Shown here: piece by piece, positions 34,731 to 64,000 of the stretch
Numbering within the stretch: the first letter of the stretch is position 1
Layout: the number at the start of each line of letters is the position of its first letter
NCBI GenBank assembly: GCA_034620365.1
Contig: JAQGEQ010000380.1
Coordinates: 2,170,001-2,234,000, forward strand
DNA length: 64,000 bases
DNA from: Pegea sp. RAD2-039
Taxonomy: Eukaryota > Chordata > Thaliacea > Salpida > Salpidae
Direction of reading: 5' to 3'
The notes under the pieces: model-generated
The model's input: only the letters and a program-made list of their open reading frames with translations
Told to the model about the DNA's origin: nothing
The model's database searches: none
Position numbers and translations under genes: made by a program

Positions 34731-35324
34731 ATGTCGACTGCGTCTTATGTGAAAAGTTTAATGACGAAAAAGGAAGAAATGGAAAAAAGTATATTTGAAT
34801 ACTACTCAATATTAGAATCGCAAGGAAATATCGGTCGACACGAACCGTTAGTAGATGAGGAAGGATTCCCACGATCCGATATTGATCTTGTTCAAGTCCG
34901 GAAAGCAAGACAAGCTATTGCACGTCTTGAAAATGATTATGCAGAACTGATGACGCAAGTAGAAATTGGTTTATCAGCGCATTTTAAAGCCGACCGACCA
35001 TCAAATAGTGATGAGATTCTTATGGAAACATCTGCTAATGTGTTTAGTGCGCAAGTTCCTTTTGCGACAGTTGATTTAGTGTGTGCTGGATCACCTGCTG
35101 ATAAAAGTGGTTTGCGTGTTGGTGATAAAATCATGCAGTTTGGTTCTGTGGTACATTCTAACTTCCGAAATATGTCATCTGTAGCTACTGTGGTTCAGCA
35201 TTCGCGAAATCGGCCTCTAAGACTCCATGTGAACCGAGGAGGTTTAGAAATTTCGTTTTCTCTCACTCCTAGAGAGTGGGACGGTCAGGGTTTACTTGGC
35301 TGTAAAATTGTCCCATTGTCTTAA
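34731..35324 (+). CDS. PSMD9: 26S proteasome assembly chaperone PSMD9/p27 (Nas2 family)
   Basis: Cytosolic chaperone that escorts ATPase subunits during assembly of the proteasome base. The ORF is 197 aa; human PSMD9 is 223. I chose the ATG at 34,731 because it lies at the expected family start, gives a typical N-terminus (MSTASYVKSLMTKKEEMEKS) and follows a splice acceptor. Residues 1-85 form the helical Nas2 N-domain (EEGFPRSDIDLVQVRKARQA; LENDYAELM). Residues about 105-185 form a PDZ domain (PFATVDLVCAGSPADKSGLR, VGDKIMQFG, RPLRLHVNRGG). The coding region has no intron, unlike its neighbours. It is close behind THOC5 on the same strand, so co-transcription is plausible. Confidence 0.95.
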   Translation: MSTASYVKSLMTKKEEMEKSIFEYYSILESQGNIGRHEPLVDEEGFPRSDIDLVQVRKARQAIARLENDYAELMTQVEIGLSAHFKADRPSNSDEILMETSANVFSAQVPFATVDLVCAGSPADKSGLRVGDKIMQFGSVVHSNFRNMSSVATVVQHSRNRPLRLHVNRGGLEISFSLTPREWDGQGLLGCKIVPLS

Positions 35325-45249: not shown

Positions 45250-47240
45250 TTTATTACAATAGACGCAGAGGACGGTGCCTGAAAAGAGCACCTCTCGCTA
45301 ACATACATTTTCACAAATAACATCTATTAAGTTAGAAATACAGAAAGCAAAAGATGTAACACATGTTATTTCGGTAGTCCTCAAAGCATATAACAGTGAA
45401 CAATTACATAGAATTATAGTAATACTAAAAAAGGAAAAATTCACAGTTTAGAAATGACAGTGTTGGCAATATTATAACAGCTCAACTTCTGCTTGAACAA
45501 CACGGGTGACTCTAAAATGAAAATGGTTGTACTAATTGTGCAGTATGAGAAGAAAATCACTCTGACCAATGTACCAGGTGATATGGGCTTATTAGGATAT
45601 AACGTGTGTCCTCTTAGTTGATATAGCTTGAGGGAAGGACTAATGGAAAAGAAATCATCAAAATGAATGTCAATTAAAATGTGGACAATTTTAAAAATAA
45701 GAGTCAAGTCGTATTTAATCCGTCGAATTCCCAAAGTATCTAAATTGAAGAAACTGAGACGATGTTTATAACTATCATATTTAATATTAAGTTTGCTGCA
45801 TACTAATCTCGTAAATATGGCCTGAACAGATTTGATTTTTTTGATATCACCAACTTGATATGGCATCCATGCACTAACATTGTATTCAAGAATTGGACAT
45901 ACGTACAATTTGAAGAAATTGATAAAGAAGTATGGATCCTTAGAATTAAATGTTTGTATAATAAGGTAAAGGTTGATTGATTTTCCAAAGATTTTGGAAA
46001 CATAATTGTGCCATTTTAAGTCAGATGATAGCGTAATGCTAAGGCTTAGGACCGAAGATATTCGTTGAATAATAAATCCATTGATAGAGTATTGGTTCAA
46101 GCAATTTACAGCTGGTTTATGAGAGAAAGTTATAAGTTCAGACTTTGTGGGCTGGATTCTGAGCTGCCAGTTCATAGACCAGTTTTCTACAGTGTGTAGT
46201 GCAGTTTGAAGTTTCGAAGGGTTAAAAGATAATAGCTTGGTATCATCTGCATGCACAAACACATTGACACCATCTGCTGCTACTAGTCTTCTGATGAGGT
46301 CTTCAATGAATATTAAAAAGAGAAGGGGACCCAAAACGGAACCCTGAGAAACAAAATTGGTGACATGACTAAGAGTAGATAAAGATCTTTTAACATGAGT
46401 TTGTGGATTCTACCTGATAAGGAATCTTCAATCCACTTTAAGATATAGCTGTTGATTTTTAAATTTTATAATACATTAATGAGCTTGTTGTGTGGGACAG
46501 AATCAAACGCTTTAGCAAAATCGAGGTATATGGTGTCACAAGGAGTAATACTTTCATACTGTAAGCTCATTAAGAAAAATGAGATGTTGAGTTAGAGAAG
46601 GTTTCCGTTTCACAAAGCCATGCTGAACATCAGATGGTGCTCCATCAAATGACTGGTCATATGATTGTAAATGATATGTTCTTGAGTTCTGCAGATAACT
46701 GAAGTCAGCGAAACTGGTCTGTAGTTAAGTGCGGTGTTTCTAGGACCATTTTTATGAATAGGAGTAATAATAGCTTTTTTGAAATTTGTGGAACTCTTCC
46801 TCGCTTCAAAGTGATGTTAAAGAGTAGTGATAAAGAGGAAGTAGTTTTTCTCAAAAACAAAGCTGAGATCTGATCTGGGGTGTTGGAAACTGATGATTTT
46901 TAAAAAGAAATAGCCTTAGATATTATATCGACAGTTATGTCAAGATATATCATCTCAGAGACATTTGCAAGGATGTCGGAGTAGGAAAGAGAAGGAGTAT
47001 TAACATCATCGGTTATAAAAACATTATTAAATTGATTGTTTAGCAATTCAGCTTTATTCTCTGGTTTTATCACAAGCTGGTTGCTGTTATCAAGCAAGAG
47101 AGGTATTTGAGATCTCGCCTTAAGCTTGTGATTTATGAAGCCCAAAAAACGTTTTCTTGCTAGGTGAAGATAAGACTACACTTTTTCTTCCAGTACAGAA
47201 ATTATAAATATATTTCTTGTAAGCTATACAAAGATCTTTG
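45250..47240 (-). mobile_element. Decayed CR1/Jockey-like LINE, reverse transcriptase region
   Basis: The minus strand reads a non-LTR reverse transcriptase in pieces. From the 5' side: YNFCTGRKSVVLSSPSKKTF (about 47,190), a linker ORF at 46,900-47,145, then PIHKNG and NYRPVSLTSV (about 46,700), IYLDFAKAFDSVPHNKL (about 46,510; motif A), QGSVLGPLLFLIF, VFVHADDTKLL (the xADD catalytic box) and WQLRIQPTKSELITF. A long C-terminal part follows to 45,441. Frameshifts and stops separate 47,145, 46,900 and 46,334, so it cannot make a full protein. The endonuclease domain is missing: truncated at the 5' end, as is usual for LINEs. Host genes on either side read in the opposite direction. Confidence 0.85.
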
Positions 47241-47452
47241 TAATACATCAATTGACCAACATGCTTGTTCTACTGTAACTGGTGAGTTTAGCTAAACTCA
47301 TTTGGAAGATTGCACTTTTCACGATGTGAATAAATGGATTCTTAAAAAACATAACTAAATGAAAAAATTAATAAATAAAGATTCAAATAAATAAATGAAT
47401 TATTGTGACTAGTAGCATATAACACAACATCCATTAAAGTATTATCTAAAAA
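47241..47452. other. Junction between LINE remnant and duplicated block A
   Basis: AT-rich, no recognisable feature; similarity to block A' begins near its right end. Confidence 0.4.
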
Positions 47453-47714
47453 GTTGCTTGCTAATCTTCCAATTTAACTGGGTACTTTGTAAGATGCTGC
47501 AAATTAGTTTGCGAAAAATTAGTTTTTATAAATGAAATATGGTTTTTCATTCCCCTAAATAGGTATCTTAAACCCTCAAACTACATTCGGTTCTCTATAC
47601 TAGATAAGATGCAATAAATTTTAATAACTGCAGAAAGGCATCAAATGAGACTAACTTGAAAACTACCTTACACCAAACTATAGATGAATCACACAAAGTT
47701 TTACAATTTAATAA

Positions 47715-47720
47715 TTTATT
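47715..47720 (-). other. Poly(A) signal of peptide gene copy 1
   Basis: AATAAA on the minus strand, about 140 nt behind the stop codon. A corresponding signal follows copy 2 (60,437-60,442). Confidence 0.5.
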
Positions 47721-47858
47721 GCATTTTAAAGATATTTTACTTTTAATCGAATCAGAAAGAATTTAGACAAATCTTGAAATGTGAGTTTCCTTAATAAAGT
47801 TTTCACAAAATACCAAGACATCTACGGTTTTTTAGAAATACTTTTTTCATCTGACAAT

Positions 47859-48978
47859 CTAGTTGACAATTTCAGAGTCTAATTCATCAACTGCTTCTTC
47901 ATCTTCAAAACCATCACTCATATGATTAGCTGTTAAAGAATTTACAAATGTTTGAACTGACAGATTTCTTATTAAGTGTAATCAGACAACAATAAGTTTA
48001 GACTAAACATAAATAAAACTATAATTTTATTTAGAAATTGAATTAAAATAAATAAAATCAGAAGTAATTTTCATTAAGTATTACCTTCTGATGATTTGAT
48101 GAAGCTGTCTATATCTGTTATCATCGTTTGAGCTTTATTTTCACCAAATTGGTCCTTTATGTTATTATACAAAGATGCCAAAGTATCTTCATACTCATCC
48201 TGATCAAGTGAGCTCTAAAATAAATAAACTTGCTATTCAGTGACAATTTGTGTACGTCTTAACTGAAGATTATAACAAAGATTTTTGAAAGATTTATTTG
48301 CTGAAGCATAGCTCATCCTTCTGCTGATTGTTTATTTCAACCAAGTAACTTACATCTTCTAGTTGCTTATTTTTATCCCCAAGAACCACTCTCATAAAAT
48401 GATGAATACTAGGCTTTGTTCTTCTTCGACCTTTGAAAAGTCTTCTGATGCTGTTAAGAGATAAAACAATTATTCACAAAACAAATTTAAAACATCAAGG
48501 TTATTTTTAAAAGAAATTCAAACCAGTGTATTTGAAAATTATAAATGGTTTTCAAAACTTTATACAAGTTTTTAAAGCAGGTGAAATTTAGCTATCTTAC
48601 GTAAAAAATTGCCAGCTTTTCTTGAGAAGATTAAACACTGGCAGCAATGAAAGTATTTTGCTCAGCACAGTTTTATCAGTAAGGTCAGAATTTGTTCACA
48701 TGATAAGTTTTCATAGACTTAAACTATTTCATTTAGTACTGCAGTTCATGACTCTAATATAATAAAACTCCTTTTTAATCAAACTTTGTATTGTAGATTG
48801 GAACTTGACCCAGGATCGGTTGTTGCTTATAAATCATAGATTTATAGAATTGTCAGGCCAGCATTTAGTCATAAACGATCAAAATAATATAAAGAACTTA
48901 CAAGGCAGAACTCCAATCGGCATCACAAGTTGAAATCAGACCCACAGCAATCAACAAGAGGATTGTTTTGTAATTCAT
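47859..48978 (-). CDS. Secreted cationic peptide precursor, copy 1 (antimicrobial-like)
   Basis: Four exons on the minus strand, in order 48902-48978, 48354-48450, 48085-48214, 47859-47929. All have GT-AG borders and the phases 2, 0 and 1 match; 375 nt, 124 aa. Residues 1-20 are a signal peptide (MNYKTILLLIAVGLISTCDA). Residues 21-50 are strongly cationic and probably amphipathic: DWSSAFIRRLFKGRRR, then TKPSIHHFMRVVLG, about +7 net. Gly50 is followed by Asp51 and an acidic tail with few basic residues (DQDEYEDT; GFEDEEAVDELDSEI). Signal / short cationic N-terminal peptide / acidic C-terminal propiece is the precursor layout of tunicate styelin- or clavanin-type and fish piscidin-type antimicrobial peptides; Gly50 could donate a C-terminal amide. 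No cysteine occurs in the mature part. An acceptor ends 12 nt before ATG (AG at 48,991-48,992); a TATA-like stretch lies further upstream. The antimicrobial role is inference. Confidence 0.82.
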
Positions 48979-49573
48979 TTTCGGTGATTGCTGAAAAAAT
49001 AAATTTGATAAATATATATAAAAGAAGAAATCAAATTACTTTTAATTATTATCACGTTGGTAAAAAACAGTTAGAAAATTTGAGCTATATAAAGGATTTG
49101 ACTTCATGCTAAGTGTTATAACTTGAGATAATAGGGAAGTGATAGTCAAAGAAGTACAAGTAGTTTTAATTAAAAGCTTTTAAGTTTTATTTAATTTTCT
49201 TCCGCAGCTTAGACATAAACGCTCTTCAAGTTTCATGAAATAAGAAATTCATTTCACTATATTCAACAGCGGTGAGTTAATTATCTAGTTAAATAGATTG
49301 CTTGATTAAAATACGCACGTCTAAAGTACGGAAGAAATATAAATACTAAACGGAAGCTTTTATTTTCAATCAAACAATTCATTTAATTGAACAATTATGT
49401 CACCTCTGATGATTATGGTCAGACTAAACATATTTAGACACTGTTAAGGCTCTACACCACATTTGTCCCTAATTAGACTTTAACGTTTTGTATGTAGTCC
49501 ATAACTTAAAAAATGTTCAAAATTATGAATAACCTAAAATTCGTTTACTATGTAAGATTTCTTTAGATGTAGC
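48979..49573. other. 5' flank of peptide gene copy 1
   Basis: On the minus strand this holds the acceptor at 48,991-48,992 and a TATA-like TTTATATATATTTATC about 30-45 nt before the ATG. The rest is AT-rich and shared with A' (61,701-62,295). No ORF of note. Confidence 0.45.
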
Positions 49574-49792
49574 ATGACTTTTTCTTCATACAAAGACCGT
49601 CTTTCAAAGCTTAACATTAAATCATTGCGATATCGATGCCTTTTCCCTGACATCTTTCCATTATTTAATTTTTATAACAATGCCTATCACCTTATTTCTA
49701 ATGATTTGTTTAAATATCGCAATCATCTATACTTATTTAGAGGTTTGTCATTCAATATTTGTAGAATCAACGATTTCAATAACACCAACTGA
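49574..49792 (+). mobile_element. LINE fragment, C-terminal RT end (copy in block A)
   Basis: Open frame of 72 codons reading SSYKDRLSKLNIKSLRYRCL, then FPDIFPLFNFYNN. It aligns with the C-terminal end of the LINE ORF at 45.4 kb. Only the 3' end of the element is present. The equivalent fragment in A' is at 62,296. Confidence 0.65.
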
Positions 49793-50164
49793 ACTAATAA
49801 ATTTTTTAACAGCATAATCACAATTTGGGCTAAAACTCATTCTTTTAATAGATTCTGTGAAAAAAAATTCCATATATAATCTCCGTAAACATCTGAACTA
49901 CATTTTACTTTAGGTCAAGGCTGTTGTTAAAAAGCTTGCTGTTATATCTGCCAGTTAATAATTTTGTATTTTTTATGCCTCAGACTAATTAATAAAGGGT
50001 TTTTATACTTACAAACTAAATTGTTTGAAAAAGTTAATATTTGAACTAGCATTGAACAATTTTGTAGAATACTTGTTTTAGCCACGTTAAAAAATGGTTA
50101 AAATAGTATTCATACATTAAAAATATCGTAGTAAAAATGTTGTTAGTCTTATCATTTTATAAAA

Positions 50165-50310
50165 AGATAAACAATGTTGATTAATTTTCAAAGATTTGGG
50201 AAACATATTTGTTTCATTTAAAGTCAGATGATAGAGTAATGCCAAAGTCTAGCACGAAAGATACTCGTAGAATAATAATTCCATTGATACATTAACTAAG
50301 CGATGCAATA
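50165..50310 (-). mobile_element. LINE fragment, reverse-transcriptase scrap (block A)
   Basis: The plus-strand sequence here closely resembles 45,965-46,095 of the minus-strand LINE (shared stretch around TTCCAAAGATT, GTCAGATGATAG and GAATAATAA). It is therefore a minus-strand piece of the RT C-terminal half. It lies in opposite orientation to the fragment at 49,574, so two insertions or an inversion are needed. Confidence 0.6.
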
Positions 50311-50487
50311 GATATGAGTCATTCTTGGTTTTAAGTTCAGCGAATATTAAAGGGGAAGCTCTATATTGATAGTTTATGTCTAGTGAGATTTGGTTTAGTC
50401 ATAATTATCTTTTACCTTAAAAATTATATCTATATTTAAAGAATAAATAAGTGGAGGTGAGATTTTGAAAGTTGTTTGGCTTACATC

Positions 50488-50569
50488 GACGAGGTGGCCG
50501 AGTGGTTAAGGCGATGGACTGCTAATCCATTGTGCTCTGCACGCGTGGGTTCGAATCCCATCCTCGTCG
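50488..50569 (+). tRNA. trnS-GCU: tRNA-Ser (GCU), unit 1
   Basis: 82 nt cloverleaf. Acceptor stem GACGAGG/CCTCGTC with discriminator G, D arm with GTGGTTAAGGC, anticodon loop CTGCTAA, long class II variable arm (GTGC-TCT-GCAC) and T loop TTCGAAT. Internal A and B boxes are intact. No T-run separates it from the tRNA-Ala 4 nt downstream, so the two are probably transcribed together. This is the consensus sequence of the family. Confidence 0.97.
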
Positions 50570-50573
50570 TAGT

Positions 50574-50645
50574 GGGGATGTAGCTCAGTGGTAGAGCGCA
50601 CGCTTTGCATGTGTGAGGCCCCGGGTTCGATCCCCGGCATCTCCA
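50574..50645 (+). tRNA. trnA-UGC: tRNA-Ala (UGC), unit 1
   Basis: 72 nt without CCA. Acceptor stem GGGGATG/CATCTCC, discriminator A, anticodon loop TTTGCAT, T stem CCGGG/CCCGG. A T5 run about 15 nt downstream can end RNA polymerase III transcription of the pair. Consensus sequence of the family; units 5, 7 and 8 are the same. Confidence 0.97.
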
Positions 50646-51970
50646 TGTTCTTATCATTATTTTTATTACTAAATCTTGTTTTGATAGTTAGATAGAAAAT
50701 GATGAAATGATTTCTGATTATTTTTATATTTCCGAGTAATGAAGCAATGAGAACTCCAATTTTAAATAAGAAATCTTTGTTTTATATATTTTGAGTTTGG
50801 TCTTATATCGGTTTTTATAAAAACACTAAATGTTAAATAGATTAATTAAAATGTTACATCATCCACAAACTCAGAGTATCTTGAAAATAAAACTTGCCTA
50901 GAAGAAACTGTCTGCTATTCTAAACCCTAGTTGAGTTTTGAGGTATGTCTTCAAATCTTAACAATTAGTTAATGTTGTCTCAGCAGCACGAGAGAAAATG
51001 GTGATTGGTGATGGTTTTCACAGGGTGTTAGTCTGCATCACCTCTTTCCTACTTTTAATATTCTCTGAAAGTCAACTTAAAACAAGTGAACTTTAGAGAC
51101 TTTCACAAGTATCTTAGAGAGCAGTTATAGGTTCACATAATCAGCTATATATCAATTGTCCTTGCTTAGCAGTGTTGAAGCTAAGGTTTTATAAGAATCC
51201 AGTATTCAACACCATCTTCATCACAGCTCTCATACTTCTTTACATTTTCAATACGTTTTCCTCGCCAAGTAAGCTACTTTTCAATTGCCGTGAAACTTTC
51301 TGGGCACCAAGCTTTTAACTTTTGTTTTTACCACCTGGTCACTAACCACTGCTGTTTTGCTTTCCATTAGTAGACCACTTAATCCGGATTTACAATGTTT
51401 TGGCCTACTAAAGAAAATATTTTTAAAGACTTTGATCGACTTGTTAAATCTTACAACTGCTACTAAGAACTGTTTGAATTATAATTTGATGAAACTTTAT
51501 TTTAAATCAAATATTTTTTAAGTATAACACTCCTATTTCTATCATTTTTTAATTCTCAAATCTTTTGTACTCTAGTATAAATAAAAAATATCTTTAAAGA
51601 AGATAAAAACTCGAGTAAAAGTTGCTACAAACTGTTTAAGTCTTAATAAAACTGACAAAAGCCATCTAGTATACCAGTAAAAAGTGATAAAAGAAATACT
51701 AGAAATAAAATTCTACAATTAAAAACTTTTCAGTTTTGAAATGTATTAATAATTTTACAAAAAAGTGATTATAACAATCGATATAGATGCAAAAAATATG
51801 ATTGATCCCTGATTTTTACTTCAGCGAATACTAAAAGTGGAGCTCTATCATGATAGTTGGTGGCTAGTGAGATTTGGTTTAGTCATAATATCTATTACCT
51901 TAAAAGTTACATTTGAATTAAAAGAATAAATAAGTGGAGGTGAGATTTTGAGAGTTGTTTGGTTTGCATC
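50646..51970. repeat. B-type spacer 1
   Basis: Spacer shared with 52,129-53,456, 55,097-56,424, 58,062-59,373 and, shortened, 59,532-60,175 and 63,365-64,000. On the minus strand near 51,190-51,250 it holds a short exon-like frame (VKKYESCDEDGVEYWIL followed by GTAAG) kept open in all copies. No other gene recognised. Confidence 0.7.
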
Positions 51971-52052
51971 GACGAGGTGGCCGAGTGGTTAAGGCGATGG
52001 ACTGCTAATCCATTGTGCTCTGCACGCGTGGGTTCGAATCCCATCCTCGTCG
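51971..52052 (+). tRNA. trnS-GCU: tRNA-Ser (GCU), unit 2
   Basis: Identical to the unit 1 copy; four nt before its tRNA-Ala partner. Confidence 0.97.
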
Positions 52053-52056
52053 TAGT

Positions 52057-52128
52057 GGGGATGTAGCTCAGTGGTAGAGCGCACGCTTTGCATGTGTGAG
52101 GCCCCGGGTTCGATCCCCGGTATCTCCA
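52057..52128 (+). tRNA. trnA-UGC: tRNA-Ala (UGC), unit 2
   Basis: One change from consensus: the last acceptor-stem pair G7-C65 becomes G-T. The downstream T5 run is interrupted (TTATATTTATT), so termination may be later than in the other units. Confidence 0.92.
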
Positions 52129-53456
52129 TGTTCTTATCATTATATTTATTGCTAAATCTTCTTTAACAGTTAGATAGACATTGATGAAATGATTTCTGAT
52201 TATTTTTATATTTCCGAGCAATGAAGCAATGAAAACTCCAATTTTAATTAAGAAATCTTTATTTTATATTCTTTGAGTTTGGTCTTATATCGGTTTTTAT
52301 AAGAACAGTAAATGTTAAAGAGACTTATTAAAATGTTACATCATCCACAAACTCTTAGTATCTTGTAAATAAAACCTGCCTAGAAAAGAACTGTCTTCAA
52401 TTCTAAACCCTAGTTGAGTTTTGAGAAATGTCTTCGAATCTTAACAATTACTTAATGTTGTCTCAGCAGCACGGGAGAAAATGGTGATTGGTGATGGTTT
52501 TCACAGGGTGTTAGTCTGGATCACCTCTTTCCTACTTTTAATATTCTCTGAAAGTCAACTTAAAACAAGTGAACTTTAGAGACTATCACAAGTATATTTG
52601 GAAGCAGTTGTAGGTTCACAGAATAAGCTATATATCAATTGTCCTTGCTTAGCAGTGTTAAAGCTAAAGTCTTACAAGAATTCGGTATTCACCACCATCT
52701 TCATGACAGCTTTCATACTTCTTCACCATTTCAATAGGTTTTCCTCGCCAAGTAAGCTACTACTCAATTGCCGTGGAACTTCTCTGGCACCAAGCTCCTA
52801 ACTTTACTTTCTACCACCTGGTCACTAACCACTGCTGTTTTGCTTATCCATTAGTAAACCACCTAATCCGGATTTACAATGTTCTGACCTACTAAAGAAA
52901 ATATTTTTAAAGACTTTGATCGACTTGTTAAATCTAACAACTGCTACTAAGAACTGTTTGAATTATAATTTGATGAAACTTTATTTTTAAATCAAATATT
53001 TTTTAAGTATAACACTCCTATTTCTATCATTTTTTATTCTGAAATCTTTTGAACTCTAGTATAAATGAAAAATATCTTTTAAAGAATATAAAGACTCGAG
53101 TAAAAGTTGCTACAAACTGTTTAAGTCTTAATAAAACTGACAAAAGTCATCTAGTATACCAGTTAAAAGTGATAAAGAAAATACTAGAAATATAACTTTA
53201 GTATTAAAAACTTTTCAATTTTGAAATGTAATAATGATTTTACAAAAAAAGTGATTATAACAATCGATATAGATGCAAAAAATATGATTGATCCCTGATT
53301 TTTACTTTAGCGAATACTAAAAGCGGAGCTCTATATTGATAGTTGGTGGCTAGTGGGATTTGGTTTAGTCATAATATCTATTACCTTAAAAATTATATCT
53401 GTATTAAAAGAATAAATAAGTGGAGGTGAGATTTTAAAAGTTGATTGCTTTACATC
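52129..53456. repeat. B-type spacer 2
   Basis: Close copy of B-type spacer 1. The plus-strand ORF at 52,598-52,801 is not kept in the same form in all copies. The minus-strand frame near 52,665-52,730 reads MVKKYESCHEDGGEYRIL before a GTAAG. Confidence 0.7.
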
Positions 53457-53538
53457 GACGAGGCGGCCGAGTGGTTAAGGCGATGGACTGCTAATCCATT
53501 GTGCTCTGCACGCGTGGGTTCGAATCCCATCCTCGTCG
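53457..53538 (+). tRNA. trnS-GCU: tRNA-Ser (GCU), unit 3
   Basis: One change (T8 to C after the acceptor stem), otherwise consensus. Five nt instead of four separate it from tRNA-Ala. Confidence 0.95.
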
Positions 53539-53543
53539 TAGTT

Positions 53544-53614
53544 GGGGATGTAGCTCAGTGGTAGAGCGCACGCTTTGCATGTGTGAGGCCCGGGTTCGAT
53601 CCCCGGCATCTCCA
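53544..53614 (+). tRNA. trnA-UGC: tRNA-Ala (UGC), unit 3, one base short
   Basis: One C is missing between the anticodon stem and T stem (GAGGCCCGGG instead of GAGGCCCCGGG). The variable region shrinks to four bases while both stems can still pair. Function is plausible but weakened. Confidence 0.85.
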
Positions 53615-54938
53615 TGTTCTTATCATTATTTTTATTACTAAATCTTGTTTTGATAGTTAGATAGAAAATGATGAAATGATTTCTGATTATTTTTATATTT
53701 AAGAGTAATGAAGCAATGAGAACTACAATTTTATTTAGGAAATCTTTGTTTTATATATTTGTTTTATAAATGGACAATGATGACTCAATAGTTTAAATTC
53801 GAAGTCTTGGTTGATCTTCGATGTATAAACAGGACATCTACAAGGATGTCTTCAGTTGTTCTTCCTTTCAGGGACATAACTCTGGAGTCAAAATGTGCCA
53901 ATCAATTAATAAATTATGGTTAGCATATTTTGCCTCACTAGATGCAGATGTAGAGAAGATCCTTTTGGGTGATATTGTAGTGGAAGGATGACATCTAAGA
54001 AAGATATCATCGATGTTTTGTTGCTCTAACTTCTTACAACATCAGAAGATTTTCTTCTTAGATGATCAAGAAGGATCTGTAAATCTGGGACACTGAGATG
54101 GGAACCTGTGAATCAAAACTCTCCTAATAATAATTAAATGCTTAATAAAAGAATTTAGACTCACTAATTTAAGAGTGAAAGACTTGATGGATCTTCGAAG
54201 AGTAAACAAAACTTCTACAGGAGATATCATCCGTTTTTCCTCCTTTCTGAAATGAAACCTGAGAACCAAAAGCAGCTTATCAAATATTGTTAATTTGGAG
54301 ACAAGTTTTAGCTCACCTGTTCAAGATAGAAAGTCTTTGAGGCATCGATACAACATCTACGAAAGACATCAGCGGTGATTCCTTTTTCAGAGATGAAAAC
54401 CTGCGAGGCCACAATTCGATTATCAAAAATAATTTAATGACTTAGCAAACTGTTAACTCACCTGATGCAGATGACTCTTTCAGGTCTTGTACTAATAGGA
54501 AGGACATCTACAGAAGATATCTTCGTTCTTTCTGTTCTTCAGGAACTGTTCTTGGATATTGAAATGGAAACCTGTGAGTCAAAACTCTCGTAATCAAATA
54601 ATGATTAAGAGAATTTAGACTCACTAATTTAAGAGTGAAAGACTTGATGGATCTTCGAAGAGTAAACAGAAGATCTACAGGAGATCTACAGGAGATATCA
54701 TCCATTGTTCTTCAGGTTAACCGTTCAGGATATTTCTAATTAAATTGCTTGAAGTTGCAATAAATGTCAGGGATCCCTGATTTTTACTTTAGGGAATATT
54801 AAAAGCGGAGCTCTATATTGATAGTGTTTGTCCTGTGAGATTTGGTTTAGTCATAATATCTATTACTTTAAAAATTATATCTGTATTAAAAGAATGAATA
54901 AGTGATGGCGAGATTTTGAGAGTTGATTGGTTTACATC
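53615..54938. repeat. C-type spacer 1 with six degenerate modules
   Basis: The ends are shared with B spacers, but 53,750-54,770 is unrelated to them. A motif like TCTACAGGAGATATCATC recurs near 53,832, 53,991, 54,213, 54,354, 54,508 and 54,679 (spacing about 140-220). On the minus strand several modules have an acceptor-like CAG before GTTTC and a donor-like GTGAGT or GTGAGC after about 84-110 nt. Two are open: 54,317-54,400 (LKKESPLMSFVDVVSMPQ) and 54,165-54,258 (MISPVEVLFTLRRSIKSFTL). Others contain stops. Confidence 0.6.
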
Positions 54939-55020
54939 GACGAGGTGGCCGAGTGGTTAAGGCGATGGACTGCAAATCTATTTTGCTCTGCGCGCGTGGG
55001 TTCGAATCCAATCCTCGTCG
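54939..55020 (+). tRNA. tRNA-Ser body with GCA (Cys) anticodon, unit 4, possibly a pseudogene
   Basis: The anticodon loop reads CTGCAAA, so the anticodon is GCA, which reads Cys codons, in a class II serine tRNA body. The anticodon stem still pairs (one G-T). The variable-arm stem is weakened, and the T stem has one mismatch (CCAAT for CCCAT). Seryl-tRNA synthetase recognises the variable arm and not the anticodon, so if charged it could put Ser at Cys codons. Decay into a pseudogene is the simpler reading. Confidence 0.75.
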
Positions 55021-55024
55021 TAGT

Positions 55025-55096
55025 GGGGATGTAGCTCAGTGGTAGAGCGCACGCTTTGCATGTGTGAGGCCCCGGGTTCGATCCCCGGCATATCCA
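55025..55096 (+). tRNA. trnA-UGC: tRNA-Ala (UGC), unit 4, acceptor-stem mismatch
   Basis: C68 is replaced by A (CATATCC), leaving a G4-A68 mismatch in the acceptor stem. Its tRNA-Ser partner is also damaged, so the whole unit looks relaxed. Confidence 0.75.
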
Positions 55097-56424
55097 TGTT
55101 TTTAACATTATTTTTATTATTAATTCTTGTTTGGATACTTAAATAGAAAATGATGAAATGATTTCTGATTATTTTTATATTTCCGAGTAATAAAGCAATA
55201 AGAAACTTTAATTATAATTAATAAATCTTTGTGTTATCTATGTTGAGTTTGGTCTTGTATAGGTTTTTATAAGAACAGTAAATGTTAAAGAGACTTATTA
55301 AAATGTTACATCATCCACAAACTCAGAGTATCTTGAAAATAAAACCTGCCACAAGAAAAACTGTCTTCTATTCTAAACCCTAGTTGATTTTTGAGAAATG
55401 TCTTCAAATCTTAACAATTAATTAATGTTGTTTCAGCAGCACGAGAGAAAATGGTGATTGTTGATGGTTTTCACAGGGTGTTAGTCTGCATCACCTCTTT
55501 CCTACTTTTAATATTCTCTGAAAGTCAACTTAAAACAAGTGAACTTTAGAGACTATCACACGTATATTTGGAAGCAGTTGTAGGTTCACAGAATAAGCTA
55601 TATCAATTGTCCTTGCTTAGCAGTGTTAAAGCTAAAGTCTTACAAGAATTCGGTATTCACCACCATCTTCATGACAGCTTTCATACTTCTTCACCATTTC
55701 AATAGGTTTTCCTCGCCATGTAAGCTACTACTCAATTGCCGTGGAACTTCTCTGGCACCAAGCTCCTAACTTTACTTTTTACCACCTGGTCACTAACCAC
55801 TGATGTTTTGCTTATCCATTAGTAAACCACTTAATCCAGATTTACAATGTTTTGGTCTACTAAAGAAAATATTTTTAAAGACTTTGATCGACTTGTTAAA
55901 TCTAACAACTGCTACTAAGAACTGTTTGAATTATAATTTGATGAAACTTTATTTTTAAATCAAATATTTTTTAAGTATAACACTCCTATTTCTATCATTT
56001 TTTATTCTCAAATCTTTTGAACTCTAGTATAAATGAAAAATATCTTTTAAAGAATATAAAGACTCGAGTAAAAGTTGCTACAAACTGTTTAAGTCTTAAT
56101 AAAACTGACAAAAGTCATCTAGTATACCAGTTAAAAGTGATAAAAGAAATACTAGAAATATAACTTTAGTATTAAAAACTTTTCAATTTTGAAATGTAAT
56201 AATGATTTTACAAAAAAAGTGATTATAACAATCGATAAAGATGCAATAAATGTGAGTGATCCCTGATTTTTACTTTAGCGAATACTAAAAGCGGAGCTCT
56301 ATATTGATAGTTGGTGGCTAGTGGGATTTGGTTTAGTCATAATATCTATTACCTTAAAAATTATATCTGTATTAAAAGAATAAATAAGTGGAGGTGAGAT
56401 TTTAAAAGTTGATTGCTTTACATC
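55097..56424. repeat. B-type spacer 3
   Basis: B spacer very close to B-type spacer 2 in its central part. The minus-strand exon-like frame is kept (KKYESCHEDGGEYRIL). Confidence 0.7.
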
Positions 56425-56506
56425 GACGAGGCGGCCGAGTGGTTAAGGCGATGGACTGCTAATCCATTGTGCTCTGCACGCATGGGTTCGAATCCCATCT
56501 TCGTCG
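56425..56506 (+). tRNA. trnS-GCU: tRNA-Ser (GCU), unit 5
   Basis: Three changes: T8 to C; G58 to A, which turns a T-stem G-T into A-T; and C76 to T, making a G-T pair in the acceptor stem. All keep the fold. Confidence 0.93.
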
Positions 56507-56510
56507 TAGT

Positions 56511-56582
56511 GGGGATGTAGCTCAGTGGTAGAGCGCACGCTTTGCATGTGTGAGGCCCCGGGTTCGATCCCCGGCATCTCCA
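56511..56582 (+). tRNA. trnA-UGC: tRNA-Ala (UGC), unit 5
   Basis: Consensus sequence, four nt behind tRNA-Ser. Confidence 0.97.
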
Positions 56583-57903
56583 TGTTTCTGTCATTATCTT
56601 TATTACTAAATCTTGTTTTTACAGTTAGATAGAAAATGATGAAATGATCTCTGGTTATTTTTATATTTCAGAGTAATGAAGCAATGAGAACTCCAATTTT
56701 GATTAATAAGACTTTGTTTTATCTATTTTATATATTTGTTTTATAAATGGACAATGATGACTCAATAGTTTAAATTCCAAGTCTTGGTTGATCTTCGATG
56801 TATAAACAGGACATCTACAAGGATGTCTTCAGTTGTTCTTCCTTTCAGGGACATAACTCTGGAGTCAAAATGTGCCAATCAATTAATAAATTATGGTTAG
56901 CATATTTTGACTCACTAGATGCAGATGTAGAGAAGATCCTTTTGGGTGTTTTTGTGGTGGAAGGATGACATTTAAGAAAGATATCATCGATGTTTTGTTG
57001 CTCTAACTTTTTACAACATCAGAAGATTTTCTTCTTAGATGATCAAAAAGGATCTATAAATCTAGGACACTGAGATTGGAACCTGTGAATCAAAACTATC
57101 CTAATAATAATTAAATGATTAATAAGAGAATTTAGACTCACTAATTTAAGAGTGAAAGACTTGATTGATCTTCGAAGAGTAAACAAAACATCTACAGGAG
57201 ATATCATCCGTTTTTCTTCCTTTCTGGAATAAAACCTGAGAACCAAAAGAAGCTTATCAAATATTGTTAAATGGGAGATAAGTTTTAGCTCACCTGTTCA
57301 AGATACAAAGTCTTTGAGGCATCGATACGACATCTACGAAAGACATCAGCGGTGATTGCTTTTTTAGAAATGAAAACCTGCGAGGCCACAATTCGATTAT
57401 CAAAAATAATTTAATGATTTAGCAAACTGTTAACTCACCTGATGCAGATGACTCTTTCAGGTCTTGTACTAATAGGAAGGACTTCTAGAGAAGAGACCTT
57501 CGTTCTTTCTGTTCTTCAGGAACTGTTCTTGGATACTGAAATGGAAACCTGTGAGTCAAAACTCTCGTAATCAAATAATGATTAAGAGAATTTAGACTCA
57601 CTAATTTAAGATTGAAAAATTAATCGATCTCCGAAGAGTAAACAGAAGATCTACAGGAGATATCATCCATTGTTCGTCAGGTAAACCGTTCAGGATACTT
57701 CTAATTAAATTGCTTGAAGTTGCAATAAATGTGAGTGATCCCAGATTTTTACTTCAGCAAATACTAAATGGGGAGCTCTATATTGATAGTGTGTGTCCTG
57801 TGAGATTTGGTTTAGCCATAATATCTATTACTTTAAAAATTATGTTTGTATTAAAATAATAAATAAGTGGAGGTGAGATTTTGAGAGTTGTTTGGTTTAC
57901 ATC
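56583..57903. repeat. C-type spacer 2 with degenerate modules
   Basis: Second copy of the C spacer, closely similar to the first. The module at 57,146-57,240 (-) again reads MISPVDVLFTLRRSIKSFTL. The leftmost-read module near 57,600-57,680 (-) reads WMISPVDLLFTLRRSI without the short duplication that breaks it in C-type spacer 1. Confidence 0.6.
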
Positions 57904-57985
57904 GACGAGGTGGCCGAGTGGTTAAGGCGATGGACTGCTAATCCATTGTGCTCTGCACGCGTGGGTTCGAATCCCATCCTCGTCG
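57904..57985 (+). tRNA. trnS-GCU: tRNA-Ser (GCU), unit 6
   Basis: Consensus sequence. Confidence 0.97.
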
Positions 57986-57989
57986 TAGT

Positions 57990-58061
57990 GGGGATGTAGC
58001 TCAGTGGTAGAGCGCACGCTTTGCATGTGTGAGGCCCCAGATTCGATCCCCGGCATCTCCA
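57990..58061 (+). tRNA. trnA-UGC: tRNA-Ala (UGC), unit 6, damaged T stem
   Basis: The T stem reads CCAGA instead of CCGGG, giving two A-C mismatches opposite CCCGG. The B box is affected as well. Probably non-functional or poorly expressed. Confidence 0.75.
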
Positions 58062-59373
58062 TGTTCTTATCATCATTTTTATTACTAAATCTTGTTTTGA
58101 CAGTTAGATAGAAAATGATGAAATGATTTCTGATTATTTTTACATTTCAGTGTAATGAAGCGATGAGAAACTTTAATTATAAATAAGAAATCTTTGTTTT
58201 AGATATTTAGAGTTTGGTCTTATATCGGTTTTTATATAAACAGTAAAGAGACTTATTAAAATGTTACATCATCCACAAACTCAATTATCTTGAAAATAAA
58301 ACCTGCCACAGAAAAAAAACCGTCTTCTATTCTAAACCCTAGTTGAGTTTTGAGAAATGTCTTCAAATCTTAACAATTAGTTAATGTTGTTTCAGCAGCA
58401 CGAGAGAAAATAGTGATTGGTGATGGTTTTCACAGGGTGTTAGTCTGCATCACCTCTTTCCTACTTTTAATATTCTCTGAAAGTCAACTTAAAACAAGTG
58501 AACTTTAGAGACTGTCGCAAGTATATTTGGAAGCAGTTGTAGGTCCACAGAATAGGCTATATATCAATTGTCTTTGCTTAGCAGTGTTGAAGCTAAAGTC
58601 TTACAAGAATCCGGTATTCACCACCATCTTCATCACAGCTTTCATACATCTTCACATCTTCAATACGTTTTCCTCGCCAAGTAAGCTACTTCTCAGTTGC
58701 CGTGGAGCTTCTCTGATACTAAGCTCCTAACTTTTGTTTGTTCCATCTGGTCACTAACCACTGCTGTTTTTTGACCACTTAATCCGGATTACAATGTTTT
58801 GACCTACTAAAGAAAATATTTTTAAAGACTTTGATCGACTTGTTAAATCTTACAACTGCTACTAAGAACTGTTTGAATTATAATTTGATGAAACTTTATT
58901 TTAAATCGAAATATTTTCTTTAAGTATAACATTCCTACTTCTATCATTTTTTAATTCTCAAATCTTTCGAACTCTGGTATAAATAAAAAATATCTTTAAA
59001 AGCAGGTAAGAAATCGAGTAAAAGTTGCTACAAACTGTTTACGTCATAATAAAAATGACAAAAGTCATCTAGTATACCAGTTAAAAGTGATAAAGGAAAT
59101 ACTAGAAATATAACTTTAGTATTAAAAACTTTTCAATTTTGAAATGTATTAATGATTTTACAAAAAAGTGATTATAACAATCGATAAAGATGCAATAAAT
59201 GTGAGTGATCCCTGATTTTTACTTTAGCGAATACTAAAAGCGGAGCTCTATATTGATAGTGTGTGTCCTGTGAGATTTGGTTTAGTCATAATATCTATTA
59301 CCTTAAAAATTATATCTATATTAAAAGAATGAATAAGTGGAGGTGAGATTTTGAAAGTTGTTTGGTTTGCATC
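58062..59373. repeat. B-type spacer 4
   Basis: B spacer with small indels. The minus-strand frame near 58,600-58,670 reads RIEDVKMYESCDEDGGEYRI and is followed by GTAAG. Confidence 0.7.
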
Positions 59374-59455
59374 GACGAGGTGGCCGAGTGGTTAAGGCGA
59401 TGGACTGCTAATCCATTGTGCTCTGCACGCGTGGGTTCGAATCCCATCCTCGTCG
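59374..59455 (+). tRNA. trnS-GCU: tRNA-Ser (GCU), unit 7
   Basis: Consensus sequence. Confidence 0.97.
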
Positions 59456-59459
59456 TAGT

Positions 59460-59531
59460 GGGGATGTAGCTCAGTGGTAGAGCGCACGCTTTGCATGTGT
59501 GAGGCCCCGGGTTCGATCCCCGGCATCTCCA
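59460..59531 (+). tRNA. trnA-UGC: tRNA-Ala (UGC), unit 7
   Basis: Consensus sequence with a T5 run shortly downstream. Confidence 0.97.
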
Positions 59532-60175
59532 TGTTCTTATCATTATTTTTATTACTAAATCTTGTTTTGATAGTTAGATAGAAAATGATGAAATGATTTC
59601 TGATTATTTTTATATTTCCGAGTAATGAAGCAATGAGAACTCCAATTTTAATTAAGAAATCTTTGTTTTATATATTTTGAGTTTGGTCTTATATCGGTTT
59701 TTATAAAAACACTAAATGTTAAATAGATTAATTAAAATGTTACATCATCCACAAACTCAGAGTATCTTGAAAATAAAACCTGCCACAGAAGAAACTGTCT
59801 TCTATTCTAAACCCTAGTTGAGTTTTGAGAAATGTCTTCGAATCTTAACAATTAGTTAATGTTGTCTCAGCAGCTCGAGAGAAAATATTGATTGGTGATG
59901 GTTTTCACAGGGTGTTAGTCTGCATCACCTCTTTCCTAATTTTAATATTCTCTGAAAGTCAACTTAAAACAAGTGAACTTTAGAGACTATCACAAGTATA
60001 TTTGGAAGCAGTTGTAGGTCCACAGAATCAGCTATATATCAATTGTTCTTGCTTAGCAGTGTTGAAGCTAAGGTCTTACAAGAATCCGGTATTCACCACC
60101 ATCTTCATCACAGCTTTCATACTTCTTCATGAAACTTTATTTAAAATCGAAGTATTTCATTTCTACAATCTTAAA
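59532..60175. repeat. B-type spacer 5, internally deleted, joined to block A'
   Basis: Follows the B spacer to about 60,128 (CATACTTCTTCA), then jumps to the TGAAACTTTATTT part that lies about 0.25-0.3 kb further on in complete copies. It merges into block A' near 60,176. The jump marks the junction at which the A' copy entered the array. Confidence 0.7.
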
Positions 60176-60581
60176 ACTTGCTTGCTACTCTTCCAATTTA
60201 ACTAGGTATTTTTTAAGATGCTGCAAATTCATTTGCGAAAAATTAGTTTTTATAAATGAAATATGGTTTTTCATTCACCTAAATAGGTATCTTAAACTCA
60301 GGAACTACTCTCGGTTCTCTATACTAAATGAGATGCAATAAAAAATTAACTACAGAAAAGCATCAGATGAGACTAACTTGAAAACTACCTTACACCAAAC
60401 TACAGATAAATCACAAAAAGTTTTACAATTTAATATTTTATTGCATTTTAAAGATATTTTACTTTTAATCGAATCAGAAAGAATTTAAACACAATTTTAT
60501 ATGTGAGTTTCCTTAATAAAGTTTTCACAAAATACCAAGACATCTACGGTTTTTTGGAAATAAATTTTTTCATCCGACAAT

Positions 60582-61700
60582 CTAGTTGTCAATTTCAGAG
60601 TCTAGTTCATCGAGTGCTTCTTCATCTTCAAAACCATCACTCATATGATTAGCTGTTAAAAAATTACAAATGTTTGAACTGACAGATTTCTTATTAAATG
60701 TAATCAGACAACACTAAGTTTAGACTAAACATAAATAAAACTATAATTTTATTTAGAAATTGAATTAAAATAAATAAAATCAGAAGTAATTTTCATTAAG
60801 TATTACCTTCTGATGATTTGATGAAGCTGTCTATATCTGTTATCATCGTTTGAGCTTTATTTTCACCAAATTGGTCCTTTATGTTATTATACAAAGATGC
60901 CAAAGTATCTTCATACTCATCCTGATCAAGTGAGCTCTAAAATAAATAAACTTGCTATTCAGTGACAATTTGTGTATGTCTTAACTGAAGATTTTAACAA
61001 AGATTTTGGAATGATTTATTTGCTGAAGCATAGCTCATCCTTCTGCTGATTGTTTATTTCAACCAAGTAACTTACATCTTCTAGTTGCTTATTTTTATCC
61101 CCAAGAACCACTCTCATAAAATGATGAATACTAGGCTTTGTTCTTCTTCGACCTTTGAAAAGTCTTCTGATGCTGTTAAGAGATAAAACAATTATTCACA
61201 AAACAAATTTAAAACATCAAAGTTATTTTTAAAAGAAATTCAAACCAGTGTATTTGAAAATTAAAAATGGTTTTCAAAACTTTATACAAATTTCTAAAGC
61301 AGGTGAAATTTAGCTATCTTAAGTAAAAAATTACCAGCTTTTTTTGAGAAGATTAAACACTGGCAGCAATGAAAGTATTTTGCTCAGCACAGTTTTATCA
61401 GCAAGGTCAGAATTTGTTCACATGATAAGTTTTCATAGACTTAAAGCGTTTTATTCAGTACTGCAGTTCATGACTCAAATATAATAAAACTCATTTTTAA
61501 TCAAACTTTGTATTGTAGATTGGAACTTGACCCAGGATCGGTTGTTGCTTAAAAATCATAGATTTATGGAATCGCCAGACCAGCATTTAGTCATAAACGA
61601 TCAAAATAATATAAAGAACTTACAAGGCAGAACTCCAATCGGCATCACAAGTTGAAATCAGACCCACAGCAACCAATAAGAGGATTGTTTTGTAATTCAT
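60582..61700 (-). CDS. Secreted cationic peptide precursor, copy 2
   Basis: Exons 61624-61700, 61076-61172, 60807-60936, 60582-60652; all splice sites and phases as in copy 1; 124 aa. Exons 2 and 3 (227 nt, most of the cationic peptide and half of the acidic tail) show no difference from copy 1, while introns differ at a few percent. Exon 1 has two changes (one amino-acid change, Ile10 to Val, in the signal peptide). Exon 4 has four, giving EEALDELDSEIDN at the C-terminus, more acidic than copy 1. The upstream acceptor and TATA-like stretch are also kept. Both copies therefore look functional, and the mature peptide is predicted to be identical. Confidence 0.82.
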
Positions 61701-62295
61701 TTTCGGTGATTGCTGAAAAAATAAATTTGATAAATATATATAAAAGAAGAATTCAAATTACTTTTAATTATTATCACGTTGGTAAAAAACAGTTAGAAAA
61801 TTTGAGCTATATAAAGGATTTGACTTCATGCTAAGTGTTATAACTTGAGATAATAGGGAAGTGATTGTCAAAGAAGTACAAGTAGTTTTAATTAAAAGCT
61901 TTTAAGTTTTATTTAATTTTCTTCCGCAGCTTAGACATAAACGCTCTTCAAGTTTCATGAAATAAGAAATTCATTTCACTATATTCAACAGCGGTGAGTT
62001 AATTGTCTAGTTAAATAGATTGCTTGATTAAAATACGCACGTCTAAAGTACGGAAGAAATATAAATACTAAACGGAAGCTTTTATTTTCAATCAAACAAT
62101 TTATTTAATTGAACAATTATGTCACCTCTGATGATTATGGTCAGACTAAACATATTTAGACACTGTTAAGGCTCTACACCACATTCGTCCCTAATTAGAC
62201 TTTAACGTTTTGTATGTAGTCCATAACTTAAAAAATGTTCAAAATTTTGAATAACCTAAAATTCGTTTACTATGTAAGATTTCTTTAGATGTAGC
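61701..62295. other. 5' flank of peptide gene copy 2
   Basis: Equivalent of 48,979-49,573, with the same acceptor and TATA-like sequence on the minus strand. Nothing else seen. Confidence 0.45.
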
Positions 62296-62514
62296 ATGAC
62301 TTTTTCTTCATACAAAGACCGTCTTTCAAAGCTTAACATTAAGTCATTGCGATATCGATGCCTTTTCCCTGACATCTTTCCATTATTTAATTTTTATAAC
62401 AATTCCTATCACCTTATTTCTAATGATTTGTTTAAATATCGCAATCATCTATACTTATTTAGAGGTTTGTCATTCAATATTTGTAGAATCAACGATTTCA
62501 ATAACACCAACTGA
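62296..62514 (+). mobile_element. LINE fragment, C-terminal RT end (copy in block A')
   Basis: 72-codon frame differing from the 49,574 copy by one residue (Ala to Ser). It was duplicated with the block, not independently inserted. Confidence 0.65.
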
Positions 62515-62879
62515 ACTAATAATTTTTTTAACAGCATAATCACAATTTGGGCTAAAACTCATTCAATTTAATAGATTCTGTGAAGAAAAAATTCCATATT
62601 TAATCTCCGTAAACATCTGAACTACATTTTACTTTAGGTCAAGGCTGTTGTTAAAAAGCTTGCTGTTATATCTGCCAGTTAATAATTTTGTAATTTTTAT
62701 GCCGCAGACTAATTAATAAAGGGTTTTTATACTTACAAAATAAATTGTTTGAAAAAGTTAATATTTGAACTAGCATTGAACAATTTTGTAGAATACTTGT
62801 TTTAGCCACGTTAAAAAATGGTTAAAATAGTATTCATACATTAAAAATATCGTAGTAAAAATGTTGTTAGTCTTATCAT

Positions 62880-63035
62880 TTTATAATAAGATAAACAATG
62901 TTGATTAATTTTCAAAGATTTGGGAAACATATTTGTTTCATTTAAAGTCAGATGATAGAGTAATGCCAAAGTCTAGCACGAAAGATACTCGTAGAATAAT
63001 AATTCCATTGAGGCATTAAATAAGCGATGGATATA
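62880..63035 (-). mobile_element. LINE fragment, RT scrap (block A')
   Basis: Equivalent of the 50,165-50,310 fragment; similar to part of the 45.9-46.1 kb LINE region on the minus strand. Confidence 0.55.
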
Positions 63036-63206
63036 AGTCATTCTTGGTTTTAAGTTCAGCGAATATTAAAGGGGTAGCTCTATATTGATAGTTTATGTCT
63101 AGTGAGATTTGGTTTAGTCATAATTATCTATTACCTTAAAAATTATATCTATATTTAAAGACTAAATAAGTGGAGGTGAGATTTTGAAAGTTGATTGCTT
63201 TACATC

Positions 63207-63288
63207 GACGAGGTGGCCGAGTGGTTAAGGCGATGGACTGCTAATCCATTGTGCTCTGCACGCGTGGGTTCGAATCCAATCCTCGTCG
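63207..63288 (+). tRNA. trnS-GCU: tRNA-Ser (GCU), unit 8
   Basis: Anticodon GCT intact. One T-stem mismatch (CCAAT for CCCAT), the same change as in unit 4. Confidence 0.9.
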
Positions 63289-63292
63289 TATT

Positions 63293-63364
63293 GGGGATGT
63301 AGCTCAGTGGTAGAGCGCACGCTTTGCATGTGTGAGGCCCCGGGTTCGATCCCCGGCATCTCCA
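63293..63364 (+). tRNA. trnA-UGC: tRNA-Ala (UGC), unit 8
   Basis: Consensus sequence. The linker from tRNA-Ser is TATT instead of TAGT. Confidence 0.97.
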
Positions 63365-64000
63365 TGTTCTTATCATTATTTTCATTATTAAATCTTGTTT
63401 TAACAGTTAGATAGAAAATTATGAAAAGATTTCTGATTATTTTTATATTTCAGAGTAATGAAGCAATAAGAACTCCAATTTTAATTAAGAAATCTTTGTT
63501 TTATACCTTTTAAGTTCGGTTGAAGCTAAAGTCTTACAAGAATCCGGTATTCAACACCATCTTCATGACAGCTTTCATACATCTTCACATTTTCAATACG
63601 TTTTTCTCACCAAGTAATCTACTTTTCAATTGCCGTGGAACTTCTCTGGCATCAAGCTCCTAATTTTTGTTTTTACTACCTGGTCACTAACCACTTCTAT
63701 TTTTAAACCACCTAATCCGGATTACAATGTTTTGGCCTACTAAAGAAAATATTTTTAAAGACATTGATCGACTTGTTAAATCTTACAACTGCTACTAAGA
63801 ACTGTTTGAATTATAATTTGATGCAACTTTATTTTAAATCGGATTATTTTCGTTAATTATAACATTCCTATTTCTATCATTTTTTAATTCTCAAATCTTT
63901 TGAACTCTAGTATAAATGAAAAATATCTTTTAAATAAGATAACGACTCGAGTAAAAGTTGCTGCAAACTGTTTAATTCTTAATAAAAATGACAAAAGTCA
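63365..64000. repeat. B-type spacer 6, internally deleted, runs off the window
   Basis: After about 150 nt of tRNA 3' flank the sequence jumps (near 63,518) to the middle of the B spacer and continues to the window end. About 0.4 kb present in complete copies is missing. The minus-strand frame ENVKMYESCHEDGVEYRIL is kept. Confidence 0.65.

Follow-up and report, generated by a model that had tools for sequence, protein, structure and literature searches.

A duplicated four-exon gene that probably encodes the secreted precursor of a cationic host-defence peptide in a tunicate

The window, i.e., the whole stretch of 64,000 nucleotides that was analysed, carries on its minus strand a four-exon gene that probably encodes the secreted precursor of a linear cationic host-defence (antimicrobial) peptide of a tunicate. 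Its layout is like that of styelin and botryllin, and the gene belongs to a new family of a known kind, the tunicate cationic peptide precursors. In the proposed course of maturation the signal would be removed before Asp-21, a protease would cut before Asp-51 and Gly-50 would be converted into a C-terminal amide on Leu-49. The acidic tail would hold the cationic segment in an inactive state during its storage in the granules of blood cells; once freed, the peptide would act on microbial membranes or on other anionic microbial targets.

The host was assigned from its own genome. Cellulose synthase joined to a glycoside hydrolase of family 6 (GH6) is a hallmark of tunicates. One 9.9 kb stretch of contig C14 gave a Glyco_hydro_6 match of 27.5 bits (cut-off 27) and also holds an open frame with the domains Cellulose_synt (E 1.1e-7, over the cut-off) and Glyco_trans_2_3 (5.8e-17). 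The GH6 frame (1.8e-8, over the cut-off) lies downstream of the Cellulose_synt frame, on the same strand and about 1.5 kb apart. Since exons of both enzymes stand side by side and their pairing is a tunicate mark, the host is regarded as a tunicate. A search for the COX1 family was without a match.

Structure of the gene and of its second copy

It had been proposed from a first inspection that four short minus-strand exons with GT-AG borders encode a secreted peptide between positions 47859 and 48978, and that a second intact copy lies at 60582-61700. Both statements hold (Table 1). The exons of 77, 97, 130 and 71 bases join in phases 2, 0 and 1 into an open frame of 375 bases, the donors of copy 1 being GTAAGT, GTAAGT and GTAATA and its acceptors AG, and both copies, each on the minus strand, yield a precursor of 124 residues after splicing. 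When the bases of the coding sequence were shuffled 20000 times, not once did the frame stay open for 124 codons.

The claimed order of signal, Arg/Lys-rich segment ending in L-G before D and acidic tail is present in the spliced translation. The protein of copy 1 reads MNYKTILLLIAVGLISTCDA, then DWSSAFIRRLFKGRRRTKPSIHHFMRVVL-G, then DKNKQLED...EIVN, where the signal peptide and the cut after residue 20 (following C-D-A) were assigned by eye. The mature segment comprises 29 residues, starts with DW, has a net charge of +7 and is followed by Gly; the tail of 74 residues past this Gly has a net charge of -17.

Both copies have TATATA 113 bases and an acceptor-like CAG 12 bases 5' of the ATG, and AATAAA 138 or 139 bases 3' of the stop codon. 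In copy 1 the acceptor-like stretch TTTTTTCAG ends 12 bases 5' of the ATG. In 14 members of the family a T-rich run followed by an acceptor-like AG was seen by eye 12-22 bases before the ATG (for example at 48991), and this AG is a candidate for the end of a 5' UTR intron or for a site of spliced-leader trans-splicing. A bacterial promoter scan of the region 5' of the gene was set aside as having no bearing on an animal gene.

Table 1. Positions of the features discussed, in coordinates of the window.
Feature	Position	Strand	Remarks
Copy 1 exon 1	48902..48978	-	signal residues 1-20 (by eye) and first mature residues DWSSA
Copy 1 exon 2	48354..48450	-	bulk of cationic segment, Gly before Asp, start of acidic tail
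Copy 1 exon 3	48085..48214	-	conserved acidic tail domain (DEYEDTLASLYNNIKDQFG...); homologous in 12 further paralogs and the sister branch
Copy 1 exon 4	47859..47929	-	acidic C-terminus, stop codon
Copy 2 exon 1	61624..61700	-	
Copy 2 exon 2	61076..61172	-	mature-segment amino acids identical to copy 1
Copy 2 exon 3	60807..60936	-	
Copy 2 exon 4	60582..60652	-	
Copy 1 upstream region	48979..49091	-	TATATA from 49091, another at 49020; acceptor-like TTTTTTCAG
AATAAA, candidate polyadenylation signal	47715..47720	-	138 bases past copy 1 stop
Duplicated block, first	47444..50801	.	holds gene copy 1 and one tRNA-Ser/tRNA-Ala pair; about 3.36 kb
Duplicated block, second	60168..63520	.	holds gene copy 2; 96.4% identical to first block
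Tandem tRNA array	50487-63365		8 tRNA-Ser(GCT)/tRNA-Ala(TGC) pairs within the window

Two further open frames of the window may be mentioned. One at 45441-46409 on the minus strand, about 1.4 kb from the peptide gene, resembles the reverse transcriptase of a non-LTR retrotransposon (HADDTKLL motif, by eye). The other, at 34731-35324 on the plus strand, encodes a single-exon PSMD9-like protein with nine relatives in the protein collection (the best 74% identical), which carry PDZ-type Pfam domains.

Block duplication and constraint among six copies

The block duplication claimed in the preliminary description is borne out by a match of 96.4% identity over 3361 bases between the two blocks of Table 1, which start 12722 bases apart, while a third copy of the gene follows 11851 bases further on. 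Between the first two gene copies runs a tandem array of units of about 1.48 kb carrying tRNA-Ser(GCT) and tRNA-Ala(TGC) genes, one of which, a Ser-type gene at 54938-55021, was called Cys(GCA) by ARAGORN; similar array sequence separates the second copy from the third (L079). The peptide gene rides within this tRNA repeat array.

A DNA search of the genome itself (105.7 Mb, 387 contigs) for further copies of the window gene gave six in total, four on contig C6 and two on C44, which are referred to here as subfamily A. The flank of the copy at C44:687318 matches that of the window copies up to the tRNA unit (L004). The copies at the end of C6 and at the start of C44 share a block of 1652 bases at 96%, and they were counted as separate, with some doubt, because the next match is arranged differently; they might be alleles in the assembly.

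The 124-codon frame is open in 6/6 copies and the splice sites are kept in all of them. Variable columns number 15/375 in exons and 111/735 in introns (Fisher 5.8e-9), and gapped columns 0 in exons and 10 in introns (Fisher 0.036). Exon 1 varies in 3/77 columns, exon 2 in 2/97, and the mature segment with its Gly in just 1/90 (2.6e-5 against introns). Codon changes, counted by hand, are 10 replacing and 5 silent; as this ratio indicates only mild constraint, the claim of constraint on subfamily A leans on the contrast with introns.

The same contrast bears on the proposal that the genes are duplicated relics which are no longer expressed and whose frames are still open because they were copied in a recent burst. 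The copies are indeed young, with introns 3.4 to 9.4% apart, and those of the window sit within the tRNA array. Yet this proposal is made highly improbable by exons that vary so much less than introns and are free of indels in the six copies, by splice sites that none of the six has lost, and by TATATA and AATAAA, which both window copies retain.

Paralogs with changing mature segments

A protein search of the genome matched the tail exon on contigs C83 and C189, and a second search completed these genes, so that 12 further full four-exon paralogs could be modelled, all with phases 2, 0 and 1 and with other cationic mature segments. Five genes form subfamily B, with the mature segment DWFRRFVRHAWKGVKHAALHTAVAYL-G, three form subfamily C (DWSRY(Y/F)LRRAWRRFHHVAYCYL-G) and one represents subfamily D (DWSRYFLRRAWRRYNHIAFCNV-G), while subfamilies E and F, three genes together, have GW(V/F)RHFV(R/H)HAWKGVKH(A/S)AL(H/K)TAVHYL-G. 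Across the 18 modelled members (six of A and the 12 paralogs) the plan is uniform: a signal of 20 residues (by eye), a mature segment of 22-29 residues with Trp at position 2 in 18/18, which ends in (L/V)-G with Asp next, again in 18/18, and a tail of 74 residues past the Gly in A or of 66-67 in B-F. The net charge is +4 to +7 in the mature segment and -7 to -18 in the tail.

The mature segments themselves change fast. Three contrasts between subfamilies, picked after viewing the alignment, gave the following counts. B and C differ at 17/69 mature sites, with 16 of the changes replacing, against 8/388 in introns (Fisher 7.2e-10); C and D at 6/69, all replacing, against 8/388 (Fisher 0.011); and E and F at 4/81, all replacing, against 8/392, which is not significant (Fisher 0.13). 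Pooled, the mature segments changed at 27/219 sites and the introns at 24/1168 (Fisher 3.7e-10), and 26/27 mature changes are replacing. The single silent change in 27, where 22% would be expected, gives P = 0.011 in the pool and 0.089, 0.26 and 0.34 in the single pairs, and since the ratio of replacing to silent changes is weak when taken alone, the claim of fast change rests on the comparison with introns.

Point selection is one way in which such change could arise. B and C are also separated by a 12-base indel, which makes an exchange of exon pieces equally possible; in the compared pairs of B copies the mature segment is identical. Intron 3 with exon 4 forms a mosaic between the clusters on C83, and the genes L037-a and L039-a differ at 4/154 positions in intron 1 and at 47/174, with 53 gaps besides, in intron 3, a contrast between introns which indicates that recombination is also at work in the paralogs.

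It had been suggested that a host-defence family is expanding by block duplication, and the duplicated block of the window, together with a wider family whose mature segments are changing, agrees with that. A conserved wrapping around a mature segment that changes fast in the paralogs is what would be expected of a defence effector engaged in an arms race. Within this family, subfamily A of the window appears as the conserved, high-charge member.

One may ask if the product could instead be a secreted signalling peptide, i.e., a neuropeptide or hormone released from a precursor with an amidated C-terminus. A signal and a short segment with a Gly at its end, next to a processing point, would suit amidated messengers too, the mature segment of A is highly conserved, and the genome has genes of the superfamily that includes the amidating enzyme, the copper monooxygenases. 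Against this, paired basic residues directly past the Gly are absent, so that the cut would fall before Asp, and the pairing of charges and a fast-changing mature segment, both of which the family displays, are unusual for hormones. A messenger is accordingly judged quite improbable, and the host-defence precursor is retained as the preferred reading.

The sister branch and the role of the tail

A search seeded with a further relative returned 51 matches. Of these, 24 hit the tail domain on contigs other than C83 and C189, nine of them with E values of at most 1.7e-8 and the other fifteen between 0.019 and 0.35. Ten loci were inspected and six were modelled by hand. In five of the six models the signal is followed by one Cys, by a short middle (TNKVTAINGDS, for instance) and by a tail, for example FDDTTYDQVLAKLFSQLVKRVGVANAKKLVTDLTKKYPVQG, which ends in exon 3; the first two introns of these five were hand-read as phases 2 and 0. 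The sixth (C6:3961819) has a longer middle that contains additional Cys. When the two branches were compared with hhalign, they aligned over signal and tail with a probability of 97.5 and E 7.2e-12. The tail stretch has a net charge of +5 and +3 in two sister members, and over 42 residues of -7 in A and -6 in B.

Two side observations concern the sister clusters. The copy at C6:3965296-3966128 (L075) has AT after exon 1, in place of the GT of its neighbour, and is perhaps no longer working. Exons of a copper type II monooxygenase lie inside both sister clusters of C6, at C6:3527151-3527596 (part in L087) and C6:3064460-3064902; the one that was read looks, by eye, more like DBH/MOXD than like the amidating enzyme.

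The peptide of the window had been called amphipathic, and the shuffles gave this part of the description no support: its best 18-residue helical moment, 0.42, was equalled by 277/1000 shuffles of its own sequence. Among the mature segments of A to F only B is amphipathic beyond its composition (10/1000), the counts for C, D, E and F being 215, 217, 110 and 140. The cationic segment of copy 1 contains a Pro. Given that its composition alone accounts for its helical moment, it may be an Arg-rich segment more than a tidy amphipathic helix, and it could bind membranes, nucleic acids or LPS. In the tail stretches, the helical moment was reached by 8 shuffles in 1000 for A, 5 for B and 45 and 17 for two sister members.

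Such tails raise another possibility, namely that the conserved tail domain is the effector and the middle exon a variable linker. Signal and tail domain are what both branches have in common; the tail stretches of A, B and the two sisters beat their shuffles where the cationic segment of the window does not; and the sister tail, with its positive charge, would be a cationic helix, while the Cys near the mature start could give disulfide dimers, such as those printed for halocidin and dicynthaurin (PMC8719109, PMC7460354). On the other side, the tail of the 18 A-F members has a negative net charge throughout, as neutralising pro-pieces usually do, and the part best conserved among the six A copies is the mature segment. 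That the tail acts as the effector of the window gene is for these reasons thought unlikely, and the cationic segment remains the favoured active part.

A broader history of both branches can be put forward as a tentative possibility, its four parts being taken jointly. According to it, (1) one secreted scaffold, made of the signal exon and a helical tail domain, would have accepted exchangeable middle exons, (2) at perhaps forty loci, i.e., the 18 modelled members and 24 found by tail match, 15 of these weak; (3) in one branch the cationic tail may itself be the effector; and (4) the other branch would have gained a cationic peptide in its middle exon, while its tail reversed charge and became a neutralising chaperone. 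If this were true, the window gene would record how an older defence peptide gave rise to a precursor that carries its own inhibitor, and the mature exon would be subject to diversifying selection or to the exchange of exons.

Tunicates, which are closely related to vertebrates, lack adaptive immunity (PMC7387483). A single genome here presents a whole family, with its conserved wrapping, an active segment that changes fast in the clusters of paralogs, and a sister tail of opposite charge. The family lets the evolution of pro-pieces that restrain membrane-active peptides be tested, and six kinds of mature segment (A-F) are available for assay.

Database and literature searches

Pfam contains a clavanin-type family and a pleurocidin-type family, and neither was matched by ten members searched at E up to 10 (weak matches were mostly filtered). 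SEO_C, found in 3/10 members (best E 0.0013), and a PINS match on the tail (E 0.014) were taken as chance. Searches of the PDB gave weak matches only, the segment of subfamily E being without any. In the protein collection, no match at E up to 10 was obtained among the 5 candidates for copy 1 or the 4439 candidates for a ten-member alignment; these negatives say little, because four-exon genes of this kind may seldom be predicted there. Among the papers listed by literature searches on ascidian antimicrobial peptides, no title or abstract opening described such a family in a tunicate.

The gene had also been likened to tunicate antimicrobial precursors, for which a protein search was proposed as a check. 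Fifteen printed tunicate peptides were compared with the segments of A, B, C, E and F (D was left out), and none of the 75 comparisons was significant after correction, so that homology of the mature segments with these peptides was rejected.

Comparison with known peptides

The order of signal, mature peptide and acidic pro-piece is widespread: it is found in fish pleurocidins and piscidins and in frog dermaseptin-type families, and in the latter the signal and pro-piece are kept while the mature part changes. The stretch ...TAVHYLG-DEQ, around the end of the E/F mature segment, may resemble pleurocidin.

The nearest layout in tunicates is that of the styelins of Styela clava, which have a signal of 22 residues, 31-32 mature residues, a Gly for amidation and a C-terminal pro-piece of 26 residues, with bromotryptophan at position 2 of styelin D (PMC8659048). 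In styelins and clavanins the cut falls before D and DD (PMC7387483). The present family has the candidate Gly donor and, in 18/18 members, the Trp at mature position 2 that is seen in styelin D; its tail is far longer (66-74 residues against 26), and styelin D is strongly hydroxylated and brominated. The printed N-termini of styelins A and B, compared with A, B, C, E and F, gave a best shuffle fraction of 0.0925 (400 shuffles). Of the earlier assignment to styelin/clavanin-type precursors, the styelin layout (signal, cationic segment, Gly, Asp and acidic tail, in 18/18) can thus be kept, and membership of either family by sequence cannot.

Botryllin is a styelin-like peptide of the morula cells of Botryllus schlosseri which kills bacteria and yeast in vitro; it has a precursor of 158 residues, longer than those described here, and a mature peptide of 37 (PMC9966394). 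The comparison covered its epitopes, three printed stretches of 12 residues, each set against six proteins. The tail epitope KEHDRDEYDGAL aligns with SSLDQDEYEDTL of copy 1, with 53/5000 shuffles as good (B, C and F have 118-124, two sister members 315 and 216), and counts as weak support, because it is one of 18 comparisons. For the N-terminal epitope 141/5000 shuffles were as good with A, a weak match, and 1201-4132 with the other five proteins; the epitope spanning the mature end gave 203-3865/5000 across the six, copy 1 being unmatched at 3865.

The clavanins and clavaspirin of Styela clava are short linear amidated cationic tunicate peptides. Subfamily B aligns with clavaspirin at 10/10000 shuffles, against 3320 for E, 983 for F and 2993 for the A segment of the window; at about 0.001 the match of B is not significant after 75 tests, and its siblings E and F are without it.

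The linear cationic peptides of Ciona (LCAMPs: Ci-MAM, Ci-PAP and others) resemble the present family in arrangement more than in sequence. Their tails are not significantly similar (13 to 274/300 shuffles, 12 comparisons), nor are their mature segments after correction. The order of signal, cationic segment and anionic helix is the same as here, and some of them have DW or GW near the start (PMC7387483).
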